Part shown: positions 4,233-60,591 of the stretch, piece after piece
How the letters are laid out: every line of letters begins with the position of its first letter
How positions within the stretch are numbered: position 1 is the first letter of the stretch
Origin: Thalassotalea agarivorans
GTDB lineage: Bacteria; Pseudomonadota; Gammaproteobacteria; Enterobacterales; Alteromonadaceae
Assembly (NCBI RefSeq): GCF_030295955.1
Contig: NZ_AP027363.1
Coordinates: 1,612,001-1,676,000 of the forward strand
Length of the DNA stretch: 64,000 nt
Direction of reading: 5' to 3'
Notes under the pieces: generated by a model
What the model saw: only the letters and a program-made list of their open reading frames with translations
The model's database searches: none
Told to the model about the DNA's origin: nothing
Made by a program: the position numbers and the translations under genes

Positions 4233-5375
4233 ATGTCTGTCACCTTGCCATATATTACCGACAATTTTGATAGTGGTAATATCCGCGTTTTAGACGCGTC
4301 TGATCCAGAAAATATTGCTCTGGAAATTAAACAAGATAAAGATTCTGATTTTTACCAGTGGTTTCATTTTAAACTGCATAATACCGCCCATATCAAACAC
4401 GTTATGCATATTAAAAATGCAGGCCAAGCGGCTTATGTAGAAGGTTGGGACGATTATCAAGCGGTTGCCTCTTATGATCGTGAACATTGGTTCAGAGTAC
4501 CCACTAGCTATGACGGTCAAACACTGACCATTACCTTTATTCCAGAGCATGACAGCGTATATTTCGCTTATTTTGCGCCATATAGCTATGAGCGTCACCA
4601 AGATCTTATTCATAGCGCACAACACCATTTAGATTGCCAAATGCAAGTCCTTGGCCAAACCATCGATGGTCGTGACATTACCTTGCTGCAAGTAGGCGAA
4701 GTAGCTGAAGGCAAAAAGTCTATTTGGCTAACGGCACGTCAACATCCAGGTGAAACCATGGCAGAGTGGTTTATGGAAGGTTTTATCGATAGATTGCTTG
4801 ATGAAGACGACGGTGCAGCGCGTGCTTTACTGAACAAAGCAGTGTTTTATTTGGTGCCTAACATGAACCCAGACGGGAGCTACAGAGGGCACTTAAGAAC
4901 CAATGCAAATGGTGTAAACCTCAACAGAGAATGGCAACAGCCTTCAATAGAGAACAGCCCTGAGGTCTATTACGTTAGGCAAAAAATGGTTGAGACTGGC
5001 GTTGATATGCACCTTGATATCCACGGAGATGAAGCGCTGCCGTACAACTTTGTTAGCGGTTGTGAAGGCGTGCCAGCGTGGGACGACAAGATGCATCAGT
5101 TGCAAGAACAATTCAAAGCAACCTTGTTGGCGATAACACCAGAGTTTCAAGATGACAAAGGTTATGACATTGACGAACCAGGTCAAGCAAACCTTACTGT
5201 GGCCTCTAACTGGGTAGGCAACAACTTTAACTGCCTAGCTTATACAGTAGAGATGCCATTTAAAGACAATATTCTTCTGCCCGATGAAATCGTCGGTTGG
5301 AATGACGGTCGCAGTGCTTTATTAGGTAGAGACACATTGTCTGCTATCTATCAAATCGTAGATGATTTACGATAA
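4233..5375 (+). CDS. M14-family zinc carboxypeptidase (cytosolic carboxypeptidase-like)
   Basis: This metallopeptidase resembles the CCP/AGBL branch of M14, with an N-terminal beta-sandwich (about residues 1-125) before the catalytic domain. Zinc ligands fit H171 and E174 (RQHPGE) and H264 (DIHGDE). The catalytic Glu fits E340 (TVEMPFKD), and the substrate-binding motif NPDGSYRGH...NGVNLNREW is present. There is no signal peptide, so it should be cytosolic. The ATG at 4233 is preferred to a GTG 33 bases upstream because family members begin near this MSVT region. The natural substrate in bacteria is unknown. Confidence 0.85.
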   Translation: MSVTLPYITDNFDSGNIRVLDASDPENIALEIKQDKDSDFYQWFHFKLHNTAHIKHVMHIKNAGQAAYVEGWDDYQAVASYDREHWFRVPTSYDGQTLTITFIPEHDSVYFAYFAPYSYERHQDLIHSAQHHLDCQMQVLGQTIDGRDITLLQVGEVAEGKKSIWLTARQHPGETMAEWFMEGFIDRLLDEDDGAARALLNKAVFYLVPNMNPDGSYRGHLRTNANGVNLNREWQQPSIENSPEVYYVRQKMVETGVDMHLDIHGDEALPYNFVSGCEGVPAWDDKMHQLQEQFKATLLAITPEFQDDKGYDIDEPGQANLTVASNWVGNNFNCLAYTVEMPFKDNILLPDEIVGWNDGRSALLGRDTLSAIYQIVDDLR

Positions 5376-28067: not shown

Positions 28068-28670
28068 ATGAGCGTGTATAAAAATATGTGGACTATCCCA
28101 AATCAAATAACAGTTTTTAGAATAATTTTAATTCCCGTTTTCGTGGTTATATTTTATTTACCAATCAGTTGGAACCAATTTGGCGCATTCGCCGTGTTCT
28201 GGCTTGCTTCAGTTTCTGATGGCCTTGATGGCTATTTAGCTCGTCGACTTAATCAATCTTCACCTTTTGGTGCATTTATTGATCCAGTAGCAGATAAATT
28301 GATGGTGGTGTGCTCGCTGGTAATGATTTCAGAGCATTATGGGCAGTGGTATGTCACAGTGCCTGCCGCCATTATTATCTCTAGAGAAATTTTAGTGAGT
28401 GCATTGCGAGAATTTATGTCTTCACGTGGTGTACGTGACGTTATTGCTGTATCTAATATGGGTAAGTGGAAAACAGCGTGTCAGATGCTAGGTATTATGG
28501 GCCTAATTTGGTATCCAGATTACGACGTACCCTTAGTTCTATTTGATTTTCCTCATATTATTTTAAATGTTGCGGCATGGATTTTTTATGCAGTGGCAAC
28601 CGTTTTAACTATTTGGTCATTAATCAGCTATTTAAAAGCAGCGTGGCCAGAATTAATGTCTAAAAAATAG
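28068..28670 (+). CDS. pgsA: CDP-diacylglycerol-glycerol-3-phosphate phosphatidyltransferase
   Basis: Makes phosphatidylglycerol-phosphate in the inner membrane. The CDP-alcohol phosphotransferase motif DGLDGYLARRLNQSS..GAFIDPVADK is complete. Four to five membrane helices; 200 residues. A second ATG 18 bases in (MWTIPNQITVFR) fits the E. coli N-terminus equally well, and neither has a clear ribosome site. The order uvrY-uvrC-pgsA followed by Gly-Cys-Leu tRNAs matches E. coli. Confidence 0.93.
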   Translation: MSVYKNMWTIPNQITVFRIILIPVFVVIFYLPISWNQFGAFAVFWLASVSDGLDGYLARRLNQSSPFGAFIDPVADKLMVVCSLVMISEHYGQWYVTVPAAIIISREILVSALREFMSSRGVRDVIAVSNMGKWKTACQMLGIMGLIWYPDYDVPLVLFDFPHIILNVAAWIFYAVATVLTIWSLISYLKAAWPELMSKK

Positions 28671-28764
28671 GGGTTAAAAAAGCGACAAATTTAACGAAAA
28701 GCTGTTAAATTTTCAGCATATTTGTTACTTTTTAACCGAACAGAAAAAAATTAAACTTTTATTG

Positions 28765-28792
28765 TTGACTCAGAACTAATTCAATGTAGAAT
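28765..28792 (+). promoter_or_regulatory. Predicted promoter for the Gly-Cys-Leu tRNA operon
   Basis: TTGACT (28765-28770), a 16-base spacer and TAGAAT (28787-28792) are followed by a C-rich start region. The first tRNA begins 33 bases further on. Confidence 0.6.
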
Positions 28793-28824
28793 GCACCTCC
28801 GTTGACAGGGAGTCATCAATTAAA

Positions 28825-28900
<76 letters not shown>

Positions 28901-28940
28901 ATTTTTCTAAGGAAACACCCTCAACTCGAGTTGATGAAAC

Positions 28941-29014
28941 GGCGGGTTGGCAGAGTGGCTATGCAGCGGATTGCAAATCCGTGGACCTCGGTTCGACTCC
29001 GGGACCCGCCTCCA
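28941..29014 (+). tRNA. tRNA-Cys (GCA)
   Basis: A 74-base cloverleaf with encoded CCA. Acceptor GGCGGGT; anticodon arm CGGAT-TGCAAATCCG carries GCA. Corresponds to E. coli cysT. Confidence 0.95.
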
Positions 29015-29018
29015 TTTT

Positions 29019-29105
29019 GCCCGGGTGGTGGAATTGGTAGACACAAGGGATTTAAAATCCCTCGCTGGTAACAGCGTGCCGGTTCAAGTCCGGCCCCGGG
29101 TACCA
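29019..29105 (+). tRNA. tRNA-Leu (UAA), copy 1
   Basis: An 87-base class II tRNA with encoded CCA. Acceptor GCCCGGG; anticodon arm GGGAT-TTAAAATCCC carries UAA; long variable arm CGCTGGTAACAGCG. Corresponds to E. coli leuZ. It begins four bases after tRNA-Cys. Confidence 0.95.
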
Positions 29106-29130
29106 TTTCATCCGCTGATGTTGAACGGTG

Positions 29131-29159
29131 TTGAAATAGAAAATAGGATGCGCTAGAAT
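29131..29159 (+). promoter_or_regulatory. Predicted second tRNA promoter within the cluster
   Basis: TTGAAA (29131-29136), a 17-base spacer and TAGAAT (29154-29159) are followed by GCGCGCC, a GC-rich discriminator typical of stringently controlled stable-RNA promoters. It would drive the second Gly-Gly-Leu set. Confidence 0.6.
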
Positions 29160-29177
29160 GCGCGCCGGAAATATAAA

Positions 29178-29253
<76 letters not shown>

Positions 29254-29274
29254 ATTTCCACAAGCCTTTACCAA

Positions 29275-29350
<76 letters not shown>

Positions 29351-29403
29351 ACTTCTTTTAGAAGCACTAGATCACCAATTATCTAGTATAAAAATCTTCC
29401 CGT

Positions 29404-29490
29404 GCCCGGGTGGTGGAATTGGTAGACACAAGGGATTTAAAATCCCTCGCTGGTAACAGCGTGCCGGTTCAAGTCCGGCCCCGGGTACCA
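29404..29490 (+). tRNA. tRNA-Leu (UAA), copy 2
   Basis: Identical over 87 bases to copy 1. Its last 17 bases (TCCGGCCCCGGGTACCA) recur three times downstream in the tandem array. Confidence 0.95.
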
Positions 29491-30010
29491 TTTAATAATC
29501 TCTTATTAAATCCTTTGTTCCGAACTTTCACCGGTCCCCTTATCAAGTACAAAATACGTCCTATATTTTGCCTGTTAGGCCACAACTTGTGTTGGTAAAT
29601 GTTCCATACATTTACATTCCGGCCCCGGGTACCATTTAATAATCTCTTATTAAATCCTTTGTCCAGACTTTCACCGGTCCCCTTATCAAGTACAAAATAC
29701 ATCCTATATTTAGCCTGTTAGGCCACAACTTGTGTTGGTAAATGTTCCATACATTTACATTCCGGCCCCGGGTACCATTTAATAATCTCTTATTAAATCC
29801 TTTGTCCAGACTTTCACCGGTCCCCTTATCAAGTACAAAATACATCCTATATTTAGCCTGTTAGGCCACAACTTGTGTTGGTAAATGTTCCATACATTTA
29901 CATTCCGGCCCCGGGTACCATTTAATAATCTCTTATTAAATCCTTTGTCCGAACTTTCACCGGTTCCCTAATCAAGTACAAAATACATCCTATATTTTGC
30001 CTGTTAGGCC
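29491..30010 (+). repeat. Tandem array of 143-144-bp units, each ending in the tRNA-Leu 3' end
   Basis: Units span 29491-29634, 29635-29777 and 29778-29920, followed by a partial unit to about 30010. Each full unit ends with TCCGGCCCCGGGTACCA, the last 17 bases of tRNA-Leu (29618-29634, 29761-29777, 29904-29920). Each begins with an AT-rich hairpin (ATTTAATAA-TCTC-TTATTAAAT). A second hairpin (GTAAATG-N7-CATTTAC) sits just before the tRNA tail. Units differ at only a few positions. Open frames on the opposite strand are by-products: 143 is not a multiple of three, so no frame carries through. Confidence 0.92.
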
Positions 30011-30181
30011 AAAACTTACTTTTCGCTTTAACTTAGCAGCGCATATCATTGATTTTAAACCAATAGCTACTAAAGTTTTCGTGCTTTAGGTTGACCGCAG
30101 ATCTCGCATTCTTTATCCTTTAACAATCAATGAGCTATTATTAGCATGTTGACTAAAAATGATGTTTATTTGGAGTAGGCA

Positions 30182-30649
30182 ATGGATATATACAAAGTGG
30201 TTGGCATGGTAGCTATATTGGTGAGCTCAGGTGCTTATGCGGAAAATGAACAAACGACCGTATATAAATGTGTAAAGCAGGGTGTTACAGCCTATAGTGA
30301 TATTCCTTGTGCTAAGGACGCACAGCAGATTGTCTATAGCACAAAGTCGAGCGCAGTCAGTTCAGTAAGCACATCAGAAGACAATCAACAAACACTTGCT
30401 GACACTCAGGCTAAAGTAGCCGAACGCAAGAAAGCGCGTGAAACAGACAAAATAAACAAAAAGATTGTACGTCTACAGCAACAAATGCAGCAAGAGCTCG
30501 CTGATTTGGATAATACCACTAATTTTGCAATTGAGCGTCGCAATGGCAAGAGCTATGACGACATCATTGCCAAGCGTCAAAAAGAAGTTAGAAAGAAATA
30601 CGAACGTTTAATTCAACAACAACGAAAGCAGTTAGAAAACATCCAATAA
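30182..30649 (+). CDS. Periplasmic DUF4124 protein with coiled coil
   Basis: A 155-residue protein with a signal peptide (cleavage near AYAENE) and a DUF4124 domain (TTVYKCVKQGVTAYSDIPC, about residues 26-44, with a cysteine pair). A charged C-terminal coiled coil rich in Lys/Gln/Arg occupies about 80-155. Function unknown. It stands alone between the tRNA-Leu repeat array and the efflux operon. Confidence 0.75.
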   Translation: MDIYKVVGMVAILVSSGAYAENEQTTVYKCVKQGVTAYSDIPCAKDAQQIVYSTKSSAVSSVSTSEDNQQTLADTQAKVAERKKARETDKINKKIVRLQQQMQQELADLDNTTNFAIERRNGKSYDDIIAKRQKEVRKKYERLIQQQRKQLENIQ

Positions 30650-47262: not shown

Positions 47263-47394
47263 AATAACCCTTATAACTCCGCATGTAAATAACTAAATAA
47301 CCCTGATACCTCCAATGTAATTTACTATGATAACCCTAGTAACTCTATACATAGCCAATATGATAACCCTAATAACTCTACAGGAGTAAAATGT
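47263..47394. repeat. Four 33-bp iteron-like direct repeats upstream of hicB-like gene
   Basis: Cores of the form RATAACCCTNRTAMCTCY start at 47263, 47296, 47329 and 47362, exactly 33 bases apart (about three helical turns). The 15 bases between cores are not conserved. A partial fifth copy lies in reverse orientation near 47488-47505. The array spans the expected promoter of the hicB-like gene, suggesting cooperative repressor binding. Confidence 0.85.
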
Positions 47395-60301: not shown

Positions 60302-60356
60302 AAAAAAAGCCTGCTAAAAAGCAGGCTTTCTATGTATGGCGGTGAGATAGGGATTT
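60302..60356 (-). repeat. Duplicate tRNA-Ser 3' end plus terminator
   Basis: TGGCGGTGAGATAGGGATTT (60337-60356) repeats the last 20 bases of tRNA-Ser, 164 bases from the real gene. It is followed on the minus strand by a terminator hairpin (AAGCCTGC / GCAGGCTT, then a seven-base T-run), like the one after the true tRNA. The 110 bases between copies are full of short inverted repeats (for example GAAATAC-N6-GTATTTC). Confidence 0.8.
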
Positions 60357-60466
60357 AATGAAATACGTCCTTGTATTTCACCCTCACGGGCGAACAAGTT
60401 CGTTCAAATTTATTCCCGATAAATTTGTGAACCCTTTTACGGGTCCCATCCCTACTCTGCAGATAC

Positions 60467-60500: not shown

Positions 60501-60591
60501 TGGCGGTGAGATAGGGATTTGAACCCTAGAGGGGCTACAAACCCCTGCCGGTTTTCAAGACCGGTGCTTTCGACCACTCAGCCATCTCACC
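60501..60591 (-). tRNA. tRNA-Ser (UGA)
   Basis: A 91-base class II tRNA with encoded CCA. Acceptor GGTGAGA, anticodon arm CCGGT-CTTGAAA-ACCGG (UGA), and the long variable arm AGGGGTTTGTAGCCCCT. Confidence 0.95.

Follow-up and report, generated by a model that had tools for sequence, protein, structure and literature searches.

The tandem array that follows the tRNA-Leu(TAA) gene of Thalassotalea agarivorans is an amplification of one member of a family of structured elements that extends across the Gammaproteobacteria. Our preferred reading, which we regard as an evenly balanced proposition, is that the array is an inverted, amplified member of this family and that the family is a putative CsrA-binding RNA. 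The array lies in a 64,000-nt stretch of contig NZ_AP027363.1 (positions 1,612,001 to 1,676,000), referred to here as the window, and its features are collected in Table 1.

Table 1. Features of the array, its host gene and a sense copy of the element, in window coordinates
Feature	Position	Strand	Remarks
tRNA-Leu(TAA), intact, host RNA of the array	29404..29490	+	last gene of the Gly-Cys-Leu-Gly-Gly-Leu tRNA operon
Unit 1, 144 bp	29491..29634	.	trailer hairpin, inverted T-arm copy, inverted core, tRNA-Leu tail
Trailer hairpin of unit 1	29491-29510		
Inverted tRNA-Leu T-arm copy, 12/15 bases	29520..29534	.	counterparts in the other units at 29663, 29806, 29949
R1 match, unit 1	29543..29633	-	38.2 bits, E 4.8e-7; GGA in two hairpin loops
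tRNA-Leu tail copy 1, 17 nt	29618..29634	+	
Unit 2, 143 bp	29635..29777	.	TRF and unit comparison
R1 match, unit 2	29686..29776	-	33.5 bits, E 6e-6
tRNA-Leu tail copy 2, 17 nt	29761..29777	+	
Unit 3, 143 bp, identical to unit 2	29778..29920	.	TRF and unit comparison
R1 match, unit 3	29829..29919	-	33.5 bits, E 6e-6
tRNA-Leu tail copy 3, 17 nt	29904..29920	+	
Unit 4, partial, diverged, without tail	29921..30017	.	TRF and unit comparison
Weak R1 match, partial unit 4	29972..30055	-	18 bits, E 0.024
Sense R1 element behind tRNA-Ser(TGA) (60501-60591, minus)	60352..60446	-	95.6 bits; R1 training copy

The array behind tRNA-Leu(TAA)

An earlier note on this DNA had described tandem units after tRNA-Leu, the complete ones ending in its tail, and three full units with a partial fourth are indeed present at 29491-30017. 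Each full unit terminates in TCCGGCCCCGGGTACCA, the last 17 nt of tRNA-Leu(TAA), which also stands at the ends of the two intact tRNA-Leu genes. TRF gave a period of 143, with 3.8 copies and 97% matches over 29474-30017. Units 2 and 3 show no difference in 143 positions, which bears out the recent expansion that the note had proposed; unit 1 has four substitutions relative to unit 2 and is one base longer. The unit is matched at four places in the genome (a single contig of 3.35 Mb), all of them in this array, and an origin of the array by chance is excluded. Open reading frames spanning it were rejected because a period of 143 bp is not divisible by three. When plasmids were searched with the array by blastn, the best 20 of 121 matches covered the tRNA and at most 14 bases after it. 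Between 28600 and 30200, neither a promoter-like site on the minus strand nor a terminator-like site was found. Elsewhere in the window, a 33-bp repeat runs in tandem for 3.5 copies at 47263-47378.

The identity of the unit emerged from other tRNA genes of the same genome. Across its 48 tRNA loci, several genes, among them those for tRNA-Tyr, -Lys, -Val and -Ser, are followed by exact copies of their own tails, and the tails behind Tyr, Lys, Val(GAC) and two Ser species are preceded by a common chain of hairpins. A model of 95 positions and 24 pairs, R1, was built from four of these elements (Ser-TGA, Val-GAC, Tyr and Lys) and from no unit of the window array; its E-values are rough, the calibration having been short. 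R1 matches the array on the minus strand, which puts the core in inverted orientation with respect to tRNA-Leu. The array very probably belongs to the R1 family. The two hairpins per unit counted in the earlier note are therefore too few, as R1 aligns over its full length on the minus strand in addition to the trailer hairpin. The tail-ended tandem units, the layout resembling E. coli tyrT and the expansion stand from that interpretation, whereas a self-contained tRNA-tail repeat is not supported: in each unit a structured element of wide distribution lies, in inverted orientation, within a copy of the tRNA 3' end, and the 17-nt tail is where that copy ends.

A plain tandem duplication of the tRNA-Leu tail with its trailer, or the decay of duplicated tRNA-Leu genes, would dispense with any special element. 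This was first suggested by the frequency of tRNA-Gly and tRNA-Leu fragments in related operons, where tail-type fragments occur in 17 of 139 Gly-Cys-Leu loci, the window included, and head-type fragments in 14 (L022 was removed from these counts as a contig-end artefact). The common hairpin chain before tails at other tRNAs of the genome changed that picture. Both the family core and an inverted T-arm copy are present in the unit; in units 1, 2 and 4, the score of the T-arm copy was reached by 4, 2 and 3 shuffles out of 500. On the sense strand, no tRNA-Leu homology remains in the unit outside the tail. Plain duplication is refuted by the R1 matches unless these are due to chance (E 5e-7), and we consider it very unlikely.

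The array could also be, chiefly, an extended Rho-dependent terminator of the tRNA operon; Rho termination at tyrT has been the subject of older work. The array is C-rich, G-poor and rut-like and, as stated, has no terminator-like site around it. Rut-like starts with C/G of at least 2 have a density of 22.8 per kb in the array and of 1.5 per kb when both strands of the window are counted, and the window ranks second of 116 trailers. Among these loci, C exceeds G in the first 150 nt after the last tRNA in 106, with the bias fading further on (sign p 0.05-0.11 at 150-450 nt), and terminator-like sites are present in just nine. The C-richness of the array is, however, due in part to its inverted orientation, in which GGA loops read UCC; no rut-like hit of that grade is left once the tails are masked, equally high scores are reached by eight of the 635 minus-strand blocks in the rest of the window, and the family as a whole goes unexplained. 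Termination as the main role is thus distinctly unlikely. Rho-dependent termination of the operon itself is plausible, and the rut-like signals of the array may be a side effect or a secondary role. Before the first tRNA of the Gly-Cys-Leu operon, G exceeds C over 150 nt in 117 of 133 loci.

The corresponding Gly-Cys-Leu operon of E. coli carries the 3'ETS-LeuZ, which passages of PMC6191717 describe as a 3' spacer ending in a Rho-independent terminator. Like the array, it is a trailer of this operon, and a role of the array in sponging small RNAs by base pairing could be drawn from it. The two differ in that the E. coli spacer has the Rho-independent terminator, of which none was found at 28600-30200, and pairs with RyhB, which is absent from the T. 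agarivorans genome (RF00057). We regard such a sponge as extremely improbable.

Several other repeats and fragments were noted in related operons. In Thalassotalea sp. ND16A (L154, 9371-9975), five tandem 121-bp units end in a tRNA-Leu tail and an A/C variant alternates from unit to unit. A tRNA-Gly-like copy kept by several Colwellia genomes (L142 9340-9432, L158 about 4238-4331, L162 to 9326 and 9466, L114 to 5998) has, by eye, inserts in the anticodon loop and T-loop and retains the acceptor stem. Pseudo-tRNA-Leu units in L006, L013, L095 and L092 (genera g27 and g21) are not the R1 core, by eye, and contain a GTCTACC-NNN-GGTAGAC hairpin with a varying loop in three of the four genomes. This hairpin was tried as a marker and dropped: it occurred in 186 of 395 genomes at two mismatches and reversed-pattern controls were of like order, so that its matches are mostly chance. 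A survey of the Gly-Cys-Leu operon by tails alone was likewise abandoned, since tRNA tails and heads are both common there and tails are therefore not special; retained tail lengths after a fixed seed are uninformative by themselves. An exact tail preceded by a pyrimidine was confined, among 274 genomes, to that of T. agarivorans. Pairing of the tail with upstream sequence gave mixed results against shuffles over 22 units, the observed value being reached by 46 (unit 2) and 65 (unit 1) of 300 shuffles in the window, and by 4 and 8 of 300 for two E. coli units and 22 of 300 for the spacer copy.

An element family at the 3' ends of stable RNAs

Within the genome of T. agarivorans, R1 matches 19 places at E<=1 and 17 at E<=0.001, and each of the 17 has a tRNA or 5S gene no more than 600 nt upstream. 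The tRNA hosts are Ser(TGA) twice, Ser(GGA), Lys, Val twice, Tyr, Asp and Thr; five further matches are at two rRNA operons, two pairs behind 5S genes overlapping slightly, and three are the full units of the window array. The two weaker matches comprise one behind tRNA-Leu(GAG) and one in a locus without stable RNA. Behind 5S rRNA, L262 and L263 are long composite repeats with five R1 matches, 5S tail copies and a repeated trailer. Inspection by eye also revealed further tRNA tail or head copies without the core at tRNA-Val(TAC) (L196), tRNA-His (L203) and tRNA-Met (L256), and tRNA-Ser heads without the core in L243 and L249.

Beyond this genome, which is counted in both of the following samples, R1 at E<=0.001 matched 96 of 147 genomes and 41 of 52 genera of the same family, with up to at least 25 copies per genome among the matches listed, and 85 of 274 genomes and 72 of 222 genera of the class. 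Among the matches listed, 28 candidates per genome were scored in the family and 15 in the class, and copy numbers are accordingly lower bounds. Tails and orientation were studied at the best matches of different genomes (29 from the family, 29 from the class) and at 12 loci of T. agarivorans. The loci contained 111 elements 70 nt or longer. A tRNA or tmRNA is present within 800 nt of 82 in sense and of 8 in antisense orientation, and 21 have neither nearby; 5S genes are not counted here, and the adjacency figures are biased because the loci are best matches. Four genomes supplied 20 further regions. The nine from two genomes of the family all adjoin tRNA or 5S genes, while no Rfam stable RNA was detected near the 11 from two genomes of other families, so the link to tails is not universal. 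It is strong in the family of T. agarivorans and common, but not universal, elsewhere. In genus g36, three 132-bp units form a tandem array behind tRNA-Phe, likewise inverted, and each of them terminates in the tail of that tRNA; inverted amplification has thus been observed in two genera, each time at a different tRNA.

No Rfam family covers the element at gathering score in the loci scanned. Among hits below that score, the best two, YrlA and sX4, overlie tRNA genes, and one to HPnc0260 (E 0.005) covers tRNA-Val and the beginning of its element, but on the other strand. The open-licence literature searched, passages of PMC9788540 included, contained no description of the element.

The element often consists of a multi-hairpin core of about 95 nt set into a partial copy of the 3' end of the neighbouring stable RNA. 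For tRNA and tmRNA, the junction with the core lies in the T-loop, and the 3' end of 5S rRNA is also used. To the right of the core is the tail of the host RNA and to the left there is often an inverted copy of the same end, so that the whole element could close as one stem. In sense orientation the order, judged by eye, is RNA gene, trailer, often the inverted 3'-end copy, core, tail and frequently a second trailer, with many sense copies located past a terminator-like hairpin. The distance from the gene to the start of the core is 26-137 nt, in most cases 45-75 nt. Among the 61 elements situated within 140 nt behind a tRNA or tmRNA, the right-hand tail copy, with mismatches allowed, beats all 40 shuffles in 52, and the left-hand inverted copy does so in 34. 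Exact tails measure 19 nt in 27 of these elements, 20 nt in five, 17 nt in two, 8 nt in one and less than 8 nt in 26, and where they are long the junction falls in the T-loop; an earlier, cruder pass had found exact tails of 10 nt or more in 26 of 81 placed matches. Hosts of the 5S type follow a like pattern with the 5S 3' end (by eye), and one element of the class-wide sample sits behind tmRNA.

Among known systems, RtT (rttR, RF00391) of E. coli tyrT/V comes closest in layout, being likewise a series of tandem units behind a tRNA, each with that tRNA's 3' tail. The likeness had been pointed out in the earlier note and holds: the rtT unit is 178 bp long and ends in 19 nt of tRNA-Tyr, hairpins precede this tail, and in the predicted fold an upstream strand is complementary to it. 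The right junction, GAGT|AATCC, recurs in several elements of the R1 family. The core sequence of RtT is unlike R1, however (best score over the E. coli units 5.7 bits, not significant), and its predicted fold has, by eye, no pair of GGA loops. RF00391 in turn has no match in the T. agarivorans genome, and none in the window at gathering score. Since R1 misses RtT and RF00391 is absent, the resemblance is one of layout and junction only; the array can be described as built like RtT, but not as RtT. In the 4680 of 5426 E. coli genomes with any match, RtT units occupy 1 to 9 places per genome, with a median of 2 (L235). To our knowledge, RtT has been described from tyrT/V only.

Short, palindromic, multicopy sequences that occur in both orientations also call to mind REP/BIME and MITE-like repeats. 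REP/BIME carry a GTAG-type palindrome linked to a RAYT transposase, and MITEs share their ends with an autonomous element and its transposase. The present element differs from all of these in that its ends often follow the tail of the neighbouring RNA and in its large covarying structure. As regards terminal inverted repeats of the MITE kind, the window array has only the 15-nt inverted T-arm, and elements elsewhere have the left and right copies counted above (34/61 and 52/61).

Pure foldback DNA is the main rival to our preferred reading: a selfish, non-autonomous sequence that inserts in hairpin loops, mainly T-loops, and spreads and amplifies without any function as RNA. It is consistent with the occurrence of both orientations (82 sense and 8 antisense), with the dispersed multicopy occurrence in other families and with tandem expansion in the window and behind tRNA-Phe in genus g36 (G107). 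Moreover, among 12 elements inspected, eleven of them without a nearby tRNA, the flanks of L299, L308, L328 and L300 match each other in inverted orientation at scores of at least 25 (no shuffle control). Against it, the bias towards the sense orientation is strong, the ends match the local host RNA instead of being fixed, and a query with one element had no match in phage or plasmid collections. In addition, the G+C content of the element (0.40-0.72) tracks that of the host (Spearman 0.64 over 58 loci), and copies that follow their host in this way look old. On balance we think this account somewhat unlikely.

Covarying structure and conserved GGA loops

The structure of the core was assessed in two alignments, A3 with 73 distinct sequences, including the four R1 training copies, and A4 with 38 class-wide sequences, both fitted to R1, which favours the structure of R1. 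Standard pairing accounts for 93.5% of pair cells in A3, against 72.9% with partners shuffled, and for 93.3% against 73.0% in A4. Double changes number 320 against 81 in shuffles for A3, where 23 of the 24 pairs covary, and 195 against 58 for A4. When partner columns were slid by 1-3 positions, pairing fell to 29-49% in A3 and 30-47% in A4. An effect of this size, over stems so varied, is hard to obtain without a real structure.

Two of the hairpin loops are set apart by GGA. In A3 the motif is present in loop 2 of 63 of 71 sequences and in loop 5 of 68, as opposed to only two and one in loops 1 and 4; class-wide, the corresponding figures are 37 and 37 of 38 for loops 2 and 5, and two and four for loops 1 and 4. 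Both loops 2 and 5 have GGA in 61 of 71 sequences of A3 and 36 of 38 of A4. An exact CAGGA[ACT]G is formed by loop 5 and its closing pair in 39 of the 71 sequences of A3 and in 11 of the 38 of A4, and the three full units of the window array have their GGA loops on the minus strand. As passages of PMC7652899 and PMC5027483 report, the SELEX consensus of CsrA is RUACARGGAUGU and the CsrB repeat is CAGGA(U/A/C)G, and stems such as UAC-GUA extend CAGGA[ACT]G of the element towards that consensus. With 9 and 8 model pairs, respectively, the stems that carry loops 2 and 5 are longer than those of most SELEX hairpins as given there, which speaks against an easy equation. CsrA is encoded in the T. 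agarivorans genome, and the two conserved GGA loops look like CsrA binding sites.

The sponge RNAs CsrB, CsrC and RsmYZ share with the element the GGA in hairpin loops and the CAGGA(U/A/C)G motif, and several GGA motifs in hairpin loops, as in RNAs of the CsrB type, are found in the elements and, on the minus strand, in the three full units. They differ from the element, which has only two such hairpins per unit, is multicopy and often stands on the 3' ends of stable RNAs. Foldback DNA could accommodate a conserved structure if single-stranded DNA were the substrate of transposition and the structure were kept for that reason; the retention of GGA in two specific loops and not in the other two argues against this. 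Of the accounts considered, a predicted CsrA-binding RNA would best cover the GGA loops together with the sense bias and the association with stable-RNA operons.

Possible functions and significance

If the element is a CsrA-binding RNA, copies in sense orientation would be transcribed through readthrough of the stable-RNA operon and their RNA would bind CsrA as a small sponge, its supply following the synthesis of stable RNA, with tandem copies multiplying the putative CsrA sites. Against this reading stand the terminator-like hairpins, noted by eye, that precede many sense copies, and the exact tails shorter than 8 nt in 26 of the 61 elements. In the window, the inverted orientation also counts against it, as a transcript of the tRNA operon would carry the complementary sequence, in which those loops lack GGA, and no promoter-like site was found on the minus strand at 28600-30200. 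A sponge role of this array would accordingly need a transcript from the minus strand; otherwise the array may be a passenger or an antisense copy.

A bolder and rather unlikely proposal is that these sequences form a new class of element, in which a putative CsrA-binding core is grafted on tRNA, tmRNA or 5S tails, copying the 3' end of the adjacent stable RNA and carrying in front an inverted tail copy that starts near the CCA end, and through which stable-RNA synthesis would feed the Csr system. The ends of such an element could arise by reverse transcription that uses the mature RNA 3' end as primer or as template, halts in the T-loop, usually at a distance of 19 nt from the end, and then switches template. 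Retroviral primer-binding sites come to mind beside these tRNA-tail ends.

One odd repeat has thus led to a testable, class-wide family without Rfam coverage in the loci scanned, which offers a frame for the tyrT/RtT repeats of E. coli and raises the question of how an element acquires ends that match the 3' tail of its neighbour. If the double GGA hairpins bind CsrA, they would constitute many small sponges tied to tRNA and rRNA operons, and growth rate would be coupled to the carbon-storage regulator.
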